A DNA stretch of 64,000 nt. Origin: Micromonospora inyonensis. GTDB taxonomy: Bacteria; Actinomycetota; Actinomycetes; Mycobacteriales; Micromonosporaceae. The notes beneath the pieces are model-generated. The model was not told the origin of the DNA, searched no databases, and worked only from the letters and a program-made list of their open reading frames with translations. Position numbers and translations under genes: made by a program. Shown piece after piece: positions 16,871-24,036 of this stretch; position 1 is the first letter of the stretch; every line of letters begins with the position of its first letter. The stretch spans positions 868,001 to 932,000 of the forward strand of contig NZ_FMHU01000002.1 in the NCBI RefSeq assembly GCF_900091415.1, in the 5' to 3' direction.

Positions 16871-18865
16871 GTGAATCCCAGTGGTGGCATGGGTGGCATG
16901 GGCGGCTGGAGCATGCTCCGGTCGATGCGCAACTCCGACGACGTCTCCGCCCACCGGCTCAACCGGGGCACCGGGCGGCGGATCGTCGCGTTCGCCCGGC
17001 CGTACCGCCGGGACATCACGGTCTTCCTGGTCACCGTGGTCCTCGCCGCGATCATCGGGGTCGCCACACCGGTGCTCGCCGGTGACGTCATCAACGCGAT
17101 CACCGGGAGCGGAACCGGGGCCGGCGCGACCGTGGTCCGCCTGGCCCTGTTCATCGCCGGCCTGGCCGTCGCCGACGCGCTGCTCTCCCTGGCCCAGCGC
17201 TGGTACTCCGCCCGGATCGGCGAGGGCATCATCCTCGACCTGCGCACCCGGGTCTACGACCACGTCCAGCGCATGCCGTTGCAGTTCTTCAGCCGTACCC
17301 AGACCGGAGCACTGGTCAGCCGGCTCAACAACGACGTGATGGGCGCCCAGCGGGCGTTCACGTCGACCCTGTCCGGCGTGGTCAGCAACGTCATCCAGCT
17401 GGTCCTCACCGCCGCGGTGATGTTCACCCTCTCCTGGCAGATCACCGCCCTGTCACTGGTTCTGCTCCCGATCTTCATCATCCCGGCCCGCCGGGTCGGT
17501 AAGCGGCTGGCCGAGATCACCCGTGAGTCGTACAACCTCGACGCCCAGATGAACGCCACCATGACCGAGCGGTTCGGGGTGGCCGGGGCGATGCTGGTCA
17601 AACTCTTCGGCGCGCCCGAGGTCGAGGCCCGGCGCTTCGCCGGCCGGGCCGAGCGGGTGCGCGACATCGGCATCCAGTCGGCGATGTACTCGCGGACCTT
17701 CTTCGTGGCGATGCTGCTGGTCGCCTCGCTGGCCCAGGCGCTCACCTACGGCCTCGGCGGGTGGCTCGCGGTCACCGGCGCGGTCAGCGCCGGCACCGTG
17801 GTCACCCTGGCCCTGCTGCTCACCCGCCTCTACGGGCCGCTGACCGCGCTCTCCAACGTCCGGGTCGACGTGATGAGCGCGCTGGTCTCCTTCGACCGGG
17901 TCTTCGAGGTGCTCGACCTGAAGCCGGGCATCGAGGAGAAGCCGGACGCGGTGGCCGTGCCGCGCGACAACGGGCGGGTCGAGTTCCGCGACGTGCGGTT
18001 CCGCTACCCGAGCGCGGCCGAGGTGTCACTGGCCTCCCTCGAGGAGGTCGCCGCGCTGGACCGCCGGGCCAACGAGCCGGTGCTGCGGGGCGTCTCGTTC
18101 ACCGTCGAGCCGGGTCAGATGGTCGCCCTGGTCGGGCCCTCCGGTGCCGGGAAGTCCACCCTGTCGATGCTGATGTCCCGGATCTACGACGTCACCGAGG
18201 GGCAGGTGCTGGTCGGTGGCGTGGACGTCCGCGACGCCACGCTCGCCTCGCTGCGCGACGAGATCGGGGTGGTGACCCAGGACTCCCACCTGTTCCACGA
18301 GACGATCGCCGAGAACCTGCGCTACGCCAAGCCGGACGCCACCGACGACGAACTCTGGAACGCGCTGGCCGGCGCGCAGGTGGCCGACCTGGTGCGCGCC
18401 CTGCCCGACGGGCTGGAGACCATGGTCGGGGAGCGGGGCTACCGCTTCTCGGGCGGCGAGAAGCAGCGCATCGCCATCGCCCGGTTGCTGCTGAAGGCCC
18501 CGTCGATCGTGATCCTCGACGAGGCCACCGCCCACCTCGACTCGGAGAGCGAGGCGGCGGTGCAGCGGGCGCTGTCGGTGGCGCTGGCCGGGCGTACCGC
18601 GCTGGTGATCGCCCACCGACTCTCCACCGTGCGGGACGCCGACCAGATCCTCGTCCTCGACGAGGGGCGGATCGTCGAGCGTGGCCGCCACGACGAGCTG
18701 GTCGCGGTGGGCGGTCTCTACGCCGAGCTGTACCGCACGCAGTTCGCGGTGGCCGACTCGCCCAGCCCGTACGTCGACGCGACCGGCCCGGAGCCGGTGG
18801 TCACCACGGTGCCGATGGCCGCGTACGTCGCCGAGCAGGCCCTGCCGCCGTCCGCCGCCAACTGA
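16871..18865 (+). CDS. ABC exporter half-transporter (MsbA/MDR type)
   Basis: 664 residues from GTG 16871, with GGAGG eight bases upstream. Met/Gly-rich start, then six membrane helices (~45-340), then a nucleotide-binding domain with Walker A GPSGAGKST, signature FSGGEKQRIAIARLLL, Walker B IVILDEATAHLD and the H-loop AHRLST. The NBD start carries an insert (SLASLEEVAALDRRANEP) between the A-loop strand and the core. It should work as a homodimer in the cytoplasmic membrane exporting lipid or drug-like substrates. It is monocistronic as far as visible. Confidence 0.9.
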   Translation: MNPSGGMGGMGGWSMLRSMRNSDDVSAHRLNRGTGRRIVAFARPYRRDITVFLVTVVLAAIIGVATPVLAGDVINAITGSGTGAGATVVRLALFIAGLAVADALLSLAQRWYSARIGEGIILDLRTRVYDHVQRMPLQFFSRTQTGALVSRLNNDVMGAQRAFTSTLSGVVSNVIQLVLTAAVMFTLSWQITALSLVLLPIFIIPARRVGKRLAEITRESYNLDAQMNATMTERFGVAGAMLVKLFGAPEVEARRFAGRAERVRDIGIQSAMYSRTFFVAMLLVASLAQALTYGLGGWLAVTGAVSAGTVVTLALLLTRLYGPLTALSNVRVDVMSALVSFDRVFEVLDLKPGIEEKPDAVAVPRDNGRVEFRDVRFRYPSAAEVSLASLEEVAALDRRANEPVLRGVSFTVEPGQMVALVGPSGAGKSTLSMLMSRIYDVTEGQVLVGGVDVRDATLASLRDEIGVVTQDSHLFHETIAENLRYAKPDATDDELWNALAGAQVADLVRALPDGLETMVGERGYRFSGGEKQRIAIARLLLKAPSIVILDEATAHLDSESEAAVQRALSVALAGRTALVIAHRLSTVRDADQILVLDEGRIVERGRHDELVAVGGLYAELYRTQFAVADSPSPYVDATGPEPVVTTVPMAAYVAEQALPPSAAN

Positions 18866-20541: not shown

Positions 20542-21132
20542 TCACCGCCGGGCGTCGCGCAGGTGTACCCGGCCGGCGATCTGCACCGCGACGGCGTCGC
20601 CGATCCGGACGACCGCCGGCAGTCGGCGCGGACGCGGGGACCGCTCACCGTCGTAGCGGTTCGCGGCCTCGCGGGCGGCGAGTTCCCCGGCGGCCATCGG
20701 CGGCAGCCCACCCTCGGTTCGCAGCTCGCGGGCGAGGTCCCAGCCGTCGCGCAACCCGCCCCGGGTGGGACGGGTCGCCGCCCAGTGGACGAAGGCCGCC
20801 GGCCAGTCGCCGCCGAGTCCGGCGGCGAGCAGGGGCCAGTGCCGGGCGACCTCTCCGGCGCGCTTGCGCAGCAACGCCGCCCGGGCCGCACCGAGCCGGC
20901 GGGCGTCGAAGCCGGGCGGCGGGTCGGCACCGGCGACCAGGGCCGCGACCAGCGCTGCCTGCCGGGCGGCCAGGTCCCCGCGTACGCCCGTCCGGGCCAC
21001 CTCGCCCGCACCGTCGTGTGGAAGCAGGGGACCCCTGCTACACAAAAAGCGGTAACAGGGGTCCCCTGCTTCCACCTCAGCGGCGGCCGGAGCGTGCTCG
21101 GCACCGGACGGTGCGGCGGCGTCCCGGCTCAC
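20542..21132 (-). CDS. SCO6045-like C-terminal domain protein, third gene of DUF692 operon
   Basis: 196 residues from GTG 21132, which overlaps the DUF692 stop (GTGA). The conserved part starts at ~45: DLAARQAALVAALVAGADPP, then RAALLRKRAGEVARHWPLLA and ALVHW-like FVHWAATRP, then GLRDGWDLARELR. This matches what I know as the SCO6045-like C-terminal domain. Homologues sit beside DUF692 genes, so a substrate-recruiting partner role is plausible by analogy with other MNIO partner proteins; it is not proven. Residues 20-39 are encoded by a palindromic repeat element kept in frame. The last ~50 residues are Arg/Pro-rich and strand-forming. Confidence 0.75.
   Translation of the reverse strand: MSRDAAAPSGAEHAPAAAEVEAGDPCYRFLCSRGPLLPHDGAGEVARTGVRGDLAARQAALVAALVAGADPPPGFDARRLGAARAALLRKRAGEVARHWPLLAAGLGGDWPAAFVHWAATRPTRGGLRDGWDLARELRTEGGLPPMAAGELAAREAANRYDGERSPRPRRLPAVVRIGDAVAVQIAGRVHLRDARR
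21018..21075. repeat. 58-bp palindromic element with 20-bp perfect arms, inside a gene
   Basis: Arms 21018-21037 and 21056-21075 are exact inverted copies (outer end GTGGAAGCAGGGGACCCCTG) around an 18-base A-rich loop. It is read through without a stop by the minus-strand gene it interrupts. It is related to the element at 35380-35427: both carry GCAGGGG-N-CCC in their arms. This is a REP/MITE-like dispersed palindrome. Confidence 0.9.
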
Positions 21133-21992
21133 GTGACCACCGGCCAGCCGGCCGCCGTGGACAGGGCGTCCAACTCGGCGCGCAGCGCCGCTGCCGGGGG
21201 ATACCGCCCATCCCGTTCGAGCAGCAGCGCGGGCGGGCGGTGCCGGGCGCAGAGCGCGCCGACCAGGTCGAGGACCTCCGGCGGTACCGGGTCGGTGTGC
21301 GTGTCGTGGTAGAGCCCGTCGTGCTCCGCGCCCCCGGCGACGTGCACGTACGCGATCCGTTCGAGTGGGAGCCGGTCGAGCAGCGCGACCGGGTCGGTGC
21401 CCCGGTTGCGGGCATTGGCGTACACATTGGCGATGTCGAGCAGCAGCAGGGCGTCGGTGCGTTCGAGGATCTCGGTGACGAACGCCCCCTCGTCCAGTTC
21501 GTCGTCGGGCCAGTCGAACAGGGCGGCGATCGGCTCCAGCGCGATCGGCACCGGCAGGTCCTCCTGCGCCCGCCGGACGTTGGTCGCCACCGCCTCGACC
21601 GCCTCCCGGGTGCGTGGCAGCGGTAGCAGGTGACCGGCCTCCACCCCGCCGGCCCGGACGAAGGCGATGTGCTCGCTGACCAGTGGGGCGTCGAGCAGGT
21701 CGGCGACCGCAGCCAGGTGGGCCACCCGGGTCGGCTCGACCGGGTCCGCGCCGCCGAGGGAGAGCCGCACCCCGTGCGGTACGACGGTGACGCCGGCCGC
21801 CCGCAACTCGGCGAGCCCGGCCGGCGGTGGCCCGGCCGGGGCGACACCCTCCGCGATCACCTCGACGAAGCGCAGGCCGGGCAGGCCGGCGACGAAGCCG
21901 GCGATCTCCGGCCGCCACCCGATGCCGACACCGGCCGGGTCCGCCGCCCGGCTCGTGCCGGTGCGTCCGGACGCGCGGGGTGGTGCGGTCAT
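21129..21992 (-). CDS. DUF692 (MNIO) family multinuclear non-haem iron oxidative enzyme
   Basis: 287 residues from ATG 21992. A TIM-barrel DUF692 protein, the family of MbnB, TglH, ChrH and BufB, which use two or three iron ions and oxygen to rebuild cysteine side chains in peptides. Likely metal ligands are in VVPHGVRLSLGG, LVSEHIAFV, IALEPIAALFDW, LLLDIANVYANARN, the His-rich HDGLYHDTHTDPV and LLLERDGRYP. It overlaps the gene upstream (ATGA) and the gene downstream (GTGA), so all three are translationally coupled. The family is clear; the substrate is inferred from the neighbouring Cys-rich protein. Confidence 0.9.
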   Translation of the reverse strand: MTAPPRASGRTGTSRAADPAGVGIGWRPEIAGFVAGLPGLRFVEVIAEGVAPAGPPPAGLAELRAAGVTVVPHGVRLSLGGADPVEPTRVAHLAAVADLLDAPLVSEHIAFVRAGGVEAGHLLPLPRTREAVEAVATNVRRAQEDLPVPIALEPIAALFDWPDDELDEGAFVTEILERTDALLLLDIANVYANARNRGTDPVALLDRLPLERIAYVHVAGGAEHDGLYHDTHTDPVPPEVLDLVGALCARHRPPALLLERDGRYPPAAALRAELDALSTAAGWPVVT

Positions 21993-22909
21993 CCCCCGCA
22001 CCCGCCCCCGCACCCGCCACCGCCACCGCAGCTGCTCCCACCACCGCAGCTGCTGCCACCGCTGTCCCCGCCGCCGCTGTCCCCGCCCCCGGCGCTGGTG
22101 CCGCTGCTGGCGGCCTGCCGCTGGATCGCGGCGGCGTCGGCGAAGTCGGGGTCGAACGCCCAGAGCGTGGCTGCGCCGAACAGCGCCACGCCCATCGCCG
22201 CCCCGGCCGCGCCGTAGGTGGCGTACGCGGGCGAGGCGGAGGGCGTCAGGTACCGGTAGTGGGCCCGCAGGTTGCTCAGGGCGGTCCGACCGGCGCGGGT
22301 CCGGTACGGCACCCGGGCGGCCTGCACCACGAAGATCACCGCGAGCACGACCATGGCGGCGACGAGGAAGCCCACCGGCCGGTCGTTCCGAATCCCGGCG
22401 AACAGGCGCAGGACGCCAACGAGGAGCAGCAGGAACAGCAGCGCCGGACCGAACCGTGCGGCACGACGCCGGTCGGCGTCGAGGGCCAGCCCCCGGTTCT
22501 CCAGGTCCCGGCGCAGTTGGCCGAGCGCGGTGGCCACCCAGTGGTCCTGTGGCAGGTCGCCGGTGCGGATGCCCCGCCCGGCCGCGTGGTGCACCGCCTG
22601 GTCCAGCGCGGTGGCACCGGCGGGCAGCGGACCGGTGGCCCGTAGCAGTTTGCGCCGGTCCGCCCCGACCGCGCCGACGCTGCGCAGCGCGCCGATGGAG
22701 CTGTAGACGGCCAGCCGCGCGCCGCCGTTGAGGTATGCCGCCTGCTCCGGGCGGAGGTGGTCGAAGCCGGGCGGCCGGCGACCGTCGAAGAGCCAGGCGC
22801 GGTGGAGGGCCGAGCCGAGCACCACCAGCGCGGCGACCAGGAGGTAGCCGGCGAGGAAGGTGGGGCCGGAGATACCCCAGGTGTCGCCCGGTGCCGCCAG
22901 TAGGGTCAT
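21989..22909 (-). CDS. TIGR04222-type membrane protein with Gly/Ser/Cys-rich C-terminal tail
   Basis: 306 residues from ATG 22909, with GGAG upstream. An N-terminal membrane helix (FLAGYLLVAALVVLGSALH), a soluble domain with RPEQAAYLNGGARLAVYSSI and DHWVATALGQLRRDLE, two further helices (~165-215), another hydrophobic segment (AAGAAMGVALFGAATLW), then a tail of ~40 residues made of Gly, Ser and four Cys (two SSC and two GGGC units). It matches actinobacterial TIGR04222-domain proteins. As first gene of a coupled operon with a DUF692 enzyme, its tail is a good candidate for cysteine modification, with the protein acting as a membrane-tethered precursor; this is inference. Confidence 0.8.
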   Translation of the reverse strand: MTLLAAPGDTWGISGPTFLAGYLLVAALVVLGSALHRAWLFDGRRPPGFDHLRPEQAAYLNGGARLAVYSSIGALRSVGAVGADRRKLLRATGPLPAGATALDQAVHHAAGRGIRTGDLPQDHWVATALGQLRRDLENRGLALDADRRRAARFGPALLFLLLLVGVLRLFAGIRNDRPVGFLVAAMVVLAVIFVVQAARVPYRTRAGRTALSNLRAHYRYLTPSASPAYATYGAAGAAMGVALFGAATLWAFDPDFADAAAIQRQAASSGTSAGGGDSGGGDSGGSSCGGGSSCGGGGGCGGGCGG

Positions 22910-23772: not shown

Positions 23773-24036
23773 ATGACGTCCCTGCCCTCCGCCACGTTGA
23801 CCGTGGCCGCCGTCCAGGCCGACCCCGTGCCGGGTGACGTGGCCGGCAACGCGTCGAGCGCCGCCCGGCTGGTGCGTCGGGCGGTCGACTCCGCCGCCCG
23901 GCTCGTGGTCCTGCCCGAGCTTTTCCTGCCGGCGACGCTCGATCCGGAGCAGTTGGCCCGGACCCGCGCCGACCACCCGATGCTGGTCGACCGGTTGCCC
24001 GACCAGGGACCCGAGCGGAACCTGGTCGCCGGCTGA
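23773..24036 (+). pseudogene. Truncated carbon-nitrogen hydrolase (nitrilase-like) remnant
   Basis: An 87-codon frame from ATG 23773 begins like a CN-hydrolase: LTVAAVQADPVPGDVAGN and the first catalytic motif ARLVVLPELFLPA with its Glu. Family members are ~250 residues or more, with later Lys and Cys catalytic motifs; neither is present, and the frame ends soon after DRLPDQGPERN. It is probably a 5' remnant left by a deletion or insertion at the edge of the region that separates acnR from acnA. Confidence 0.7.

Follow-up and report, generated by a model that had tools for sequence, protein, structure and literature searches.

In Micromonospora inyonensis, three adjacent minus-strand genes in the 64,000-nucleotide stretch of DNA that we analysed (hereafter the window) constitute a conserved and probably functional unit, and we consider it likely that they form a minimal modification module in which an iron enzyme of the DUF692 (MNIO) family and an MbnC-like partner oxidize cysteines in the C-terminal tail of a TIGR04222 membrane protein, the tail staying membrane-anchored, probably as a metal-binding (copper-type) or redox-protective array. 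Cysteine oxidation is established for the MNIO enzymes MbnB, TglH, ChrH and BufB. In the proposed module the three genes would be translated in a coupled manner, the enzyme–partner pair, presumably cytosolic, would capture the tail, the MNIO would oxidize its cysteines, and the membrane-held array would bind metal or react with oxidants; a role in metal or redox stress is suggested because of what is made by other MNIO enzymes. The features of the locus are:

21989..22909, minus strand: gene 1, TIGR04222 membrane protein of 306 residues, proposed MNIO substrate (147.4 bits, domain cut-off 43)
22787..22867, minus strand: TM1 (transmembrane helix 1), residues 15-41, first long helix, N-terminus predicted outside (topology and structure model)
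22463..22705, minus strand: winged-helix region, residues 69-149, where the family profile aligns with GPP34/GOLPH3 (profile comparison)
22316..22453, minus strand: TM2-TM3 hairpin, residues 153-198 (topology and structure model)
21989..22108, minus strand: Gly/Ser tail, residues 268-306 and stop, with Cys 288, 294, 300 and 304 and a terminal CGG (sequence)
21129..21992, minus strand: gene 2, MNIO (DUF692) enzyme of 287 residues (PF05114, 269 bits; invariant residue set)
20542..21132, minus strand: gene 3, partner protein of 196 residues, predicted model resembling MbnC of the MbnABC complex (structure model)
21017..21076, minus strand: dispersed palindromic element, in frame in the 5′ part of gene 3 (repeat count, partner alignment)

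Genes 1 and 2 start with ATG and gene 3 with GTG, and both junctions are four-base overlaps, ATGA and then GTGA; an earlier note on this DNA had described stop/start overlaps at both. The coupling is above chance: across the genus the first overlap, with its start in the MNIO frame, is kept in 68/68 fetched loci, and the second, with its start in the partner frame, in all 66 loci with a partner hit. A search of the whole source genome finds one MNIO gene and one TIGR04222 gene. The earlier note had also drawn attention to a Gly/Ser tail of about 40 residues with four cysteines, and this is what the gene 1 protein carries: Gly and Ser make up most of the last 39 residues, the protein ends in SSCGGGSSCGGGGGCGGGCGG, the cysteines are spaced 6-6-4, and in the structure model the tail has a predicted local distance difference test score (pLDDT) mostly below 50.

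That gene 2 encodes a DUF692 protein with the expected His/Asp/Glu set is borne out by its PF05114 score (269.1 bits, Pfam cut-off 25) and by the residues H73, H108, E153, D186, N189, H217, D230, H232 and E259, which are among 26 invariant columns in an alignment of 21 sequences. It matches five NCBIfam MNIO models but reaches the cut-off of none, the best being MNIO_BufB (NF050167) at 185 bits, against an equivalog cut-off of 310; the match to the MbnB model is weak (28.6, cut-off 325). Among solved structures, sequence matches at E<=0.01 are limited to 3bww (E 4e-28) and 8hci/8hi7/8hi8 (E 2e-23).

Gene 3 lies directly after the MNIO gene with a GTGA overlap, as expected of an MbnC-like (PME-type 2) partner, and its predicted model appears to resemble MbnC in fold, with no Foldseek match at E<=0.001. 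No Pfam or NCBIfam model matches the protein at E<=1, PF09836 (DUF2063, PME-type 1) included, and comparison of the partner profile with PDB sequences returns nothing below E 1; the label 'SCO6045-like' given to it previously was not recovered in any search. Of 24 diverse loci chosen because they contain MNIO or TIGR04222, 16 have the partner. The near-perfect 60 bp palindrome inside the gene, which the earlier note had missed, adds about 20 residues and is absent from the other 38 aligned partners. Its arm is present in the genome in 59 + 43 copies (allowing up to two mismatches; the reversed control gives 0), and the palindrome is an interspersed repeat.

Evidence that the tail cysteines go with the enzyme comes from comparison within Micromonospora. 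We sampled 81 genomes and fetched 68 MNIO-linked TIGR04222 genes from 68 genomes (53 of the sample and 15 further members of the genus); here and below tails are measured from the end of our own iterated profile rather than from the NCBIfam model, and locus counts are raw, uncorrected for relatedness. TIGR04222 matches above the cut-off occur in 75/81 genomes and MNIO matches in 72/81. The absences of TIGR04222 are weak because the genome searches scored only part of the candidates, up to 30 per genome in this survey and up to 7, 9 or 21 in the others. Pairing of the genes (96 places in 74 genomes, omitting the split matches of G014 and all matches below the cut-off) places an MNIO just downstream on the same strand in 70 genomes, with a gap between domains of 156-312 bases. 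As for the other two MNIO-positive genomes, both genes are cut by contig ends in G076, and in G009 a contig end where the MNIO starts hides the gene upstream of it; the TIGR04222 gene detected in G009 is an unlinked paralogue. Eight of the nine genomes without an MNIO are drafts of at least 420 contigs. All 68 linked genes encode tails with two to six cysteines (6, 14, 15, 26 and 7 genes with 2, 3, 4, 5 and 6, respectively), most commonly spaced six residues apart (119/218). The unlinked paralogues, at 23 places in the genus sample and all fetched, stop shortly past the domain, mostly ending ...ARR, and none carries a tail cysteine. We also note a second MNIO gene in four genomes of the genus (L205, L206, L207 and L208), with no TIGR04222 or partner gene found beside it.

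A wider survey covered 228 TIGR04222 genes from 168 genomes, a Cys tail being taken as two or more tail cysteines. Outside Micromonospora and a second genus considered below, Cys tails are present in 60/67 MNIO-adjacent genes, in 11/14 genes with an MNIO elsewhere in the genome, and in 0/5 where no MNIO was found; a strict rule that a Cys tail has an MNIO beside it is ruled out by the 11 copies away from one. Counting Micromonospora and leaving out the second genus, one or more Cys tails occur in 119 of the 120 loci that contain both genes; only L047 differs, with a single tail cysteine. In four loci (L190, L191, L180 and L308) TIGR04222 genes stand in tandem, two to four together and several of them Cys-tailed, with an MNIO beside the array in all but L180. 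This survey of co-occurrence and cysteine conservation, set beforehand as a test that could refute the proposal, left it standing in Micromonospora and in most other fetched loci of the order.

Where the tail lies is less clear. The earlier note had proposed a membrane-tethered protein whose modified tail forms a cell-surface or membrane-bound array; the tethering stands on three clear membrane helices, and for the tail we regard cytosol and surface as near even. Because only three helices are clear and a fourth is marginal, the tail may face the cytosol. There is about an even chance that it is instead exported, being modified before translocation to give a cell-surface array, as Antoine et al. 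propose (PMC12452194), who place the large domains as well as the tail outside the membrane. Consistent with export, the fourth segment (residues 234-252) precedes the tail at a hydropathy of 1.25 in 47/68 Cys-tailed proteins of the genus and 51/71 of other taxa, and lysine or arginine is absent from it in all 67 aligned Cys-tailed genus proteins but present in 20/20 tailless paralogues, as if a membrane span were needed. However, the segment is weak, with a hydropathy of 1.63 in gene 1 and a mean of 1.29 over 67 genus members against 2.0-2.5 for TM1-3, the structure model breaks it into helices at 229-244, 247-252 and 254-259, and 14/19 Cys-tailed proteins of the second genus lack it at 1.25.

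The body of the protein offers a lead that bears on the same question. Between the TIGR04222 family and GPP34/GOLPH3 the profiles are similar across some 80 residues and a structural alignment spans 137-152. Part of this signal is that of a general winged helix, since a TIGR04222 profile stripped of the hairpin columns also matches MarR, at 71.5% over 46 columns (the other two versions give 13.9% and 21.4%, and GPP34 itself 21.1%). Gene 1 differs from GOLPH3 and GPP34 in having no direct match to PF05719 (GPP34) at E<=1 and in adding three membrane helices and the Cys tail, and the C-terminal part of the TIGR04222 profile alone does not match GPP34. Putting these together gives a tentative and, in our view, less probable picture, in which TIGR04222 proteins would be membrane-anchored GOLPH3 relatives with a cytosolic tandem winged-helix body and a modified, never-exported Cys array on the inner membrane face. 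TM1 would hold the body in place together with a hairpin of two helices inserted in the wing of the second winged helix, roughly at the site of the membrane-inserting hairpin of GOLPH3. The fourth hydrophobic segment would be a core helix rather than a membrane span, leaving the tail cytosolic, and the MNIO and partner would oxidize the tail there, with the protein's own winged-helix body acting as the recognition element.

The TIGR04222 protein may have a new fold. Foldseek gives no match at E<=0.001 for gene 1, and among the 50 matches listed by VIA-align ferritins and other helical proteins at similar Z dominate, the ferritins over 93-106 residues only. Against PDB sequences the TIGR04222 profile finds only a designed protein (E 0.011), regulators of winged-helix type (E 0.07-0.6) and two further weak matches. 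Residues 132-222 of gene 1, comprising the TM2-TM3 hairpin and its flanks, resemble the C-terminal domain of DUF2207 (PF20990) weakly, at 24.5 bits, below the cut-off of 33 (E 2.5e-5). Neither GOLPH3 nor GPP34 is mentioned in the main text of PMC12452194.

A different reading, which we think rather unlikely, is that the tail is not the substrate, the MNIO and partner modifying some other protein or peptide while the Cys tail serves as an unmodified thiol array in the same stress response. It is favored by a second genus with large genomes (g7), from which we fetched 45 MNIO loci: eight phylum-search hits, 33 taken in listing order (G746 and G760 left out) and four chosen as MNIO-positive without a TIGR04222 match; 6 of the 11 genomes of this genus with an MNIO but no TIGR04222 match are in the set. 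Enzyme and partner are a single open frame in 42/45 of these loci, which links gene 3 to the enzyme, and a Cys-tailed TIGR04222 protein is present in 17/45. Several observations here weigh against the module as we propose it: 22/45 loci have only a TIGR04222 protein with no more than one tail cysteine, and 6/45 have no TIGR04222 gene in the stretch (four of them chosen for that; the stretch of L301 ends early), making 28 loci in which the enzyme persists with no Cys tail, so that it either has another target there or is a relic. Moreover, of three g7 genomes with TIGR04222 and no MNIO found, two lack tail cysteines but G829, a 1,420-contig draft, has a tail with three, and Cys number and tail length vary among the surveyed proteins, the repetitive tails holding 2 to 10 cysteines. 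A strict rule that an MNIO means a Cys tail is thus ruled out, and the pairing of enzyme, tail and partner claimed earlier holds in Micromonospora and most other fetched loci but not throughout this genus. Antoine et al. report that MNIO is missing from roughly one in three of the genomes that carry TIGR04222 genes (490/1372) and that more than a quarter of TIGR04222 proteins have no C-proximal cysteine (PMC12452194). Set against this, tail cysteines track the MNIO in one genus without exception (68/68 linked, 0/23 unlinked), and no convincing small Cys-rich gene that might be the substrate was seen in a listing of small open reading frames from eight second-genus loci (six without and two with a Cys tail) or in gene maps of ten loci.

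The second genus also shows some recurrent neighbors. The MNIO-partner fusion is often followed by genes for a DUF4142 protein and a TAP-like hydrolase, by Pfam scan in L192, L198 and L202 and by gene map in L293, L304-L307, L274 and L280, the next genes being HemQ-like and HemG-like by appearance.

It is improbable that the tail, once modified, is cleaved from the protein and set free as a peptide in the manner of methanobactin. Other MNIO products are free peptides, and at 16871-18865 on the opposite strand the window encodes an ABC transporter (PF00664 and PF00005), close relatives of which lie near the module in two of the 24 diverse loci (L152 and L153). However, even the looser ABC transporter group, the next commonest neighbor family after the partner, is found in only 5/24, which makes release less likely; no other neighbor family exceeds 4/24, and the tail is part of one polypeptide with a conserved membrane body. 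That the cysteines have no function and arise simply from the GC-rich, low-complexity DNA encoding a Gly tail would fit the repetitiveness and variability of the tails but is very improbable. We reject chance occurrence in view of the terminal CGG, kept in 67/68 genus tails despite length variation, and of the Gly-rich, Cys-free tails at L184 and L187, whose genomes yielded no MNIO. Elsewhere in the window, an 87-residue frame at 23773-24036 on the plus strand matches only the first 46 positions of CN_hydrolase (nitrilase) and is apparently a truncated gene.

Modification of the tail thus remains our preferred reading, and the proposal is already published. In the account of Antoine et al. (2025, PMC12452194), TIGR04222 proteins are often encoded next to an MNIO, chiefly in Actinomycetota, and have Ser/Gly regions at the C-terminus that are punctuated by Cys (a Micromonospora protein is modelled with such a tail), subsets of them are probable MNIO substrates, and the partners are PME-type 2, one being named from Micromonospora. 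The main inference of the earlier note is therefore in print. The clusters described there comprise the same gene families as the module described here, in which the partner gene differs in carrying the palindromic insertion. Our additions are the fold lead, the within-genus contrast and the doubt over where the tail lies. Among other known systems, bufferins (BufA/BufB) are alike in the best NCBIfam model of the enzyme and in having Cys-rich substrates, but the gene 2 score is short of the BufB cut-off, there is no DUF2063 partner, and what we propose as substrate crosses the membrane several times. Methanobactin MbnABC shares an MNIO and a partner of apparently similar predicted fold, but the MbnB score is weak and the substrate proposed here differs from a short leader peptide.

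The class of peptide-modifying enzymes formed by the MNIOs is growing, and the module would extend it to a tail on a folded membrane protein. The presence in one genus of linked, Cys-tailed copies and unlinked, Cys-free paralogues, together with a set of only three genes, makes the substrate question directly testable, and the tight coupling and possible new fold make the proposal easier to test. Whether the cell surface or the cytosol would be the product's site of action depends on the topology of the TIGR04222 protein.
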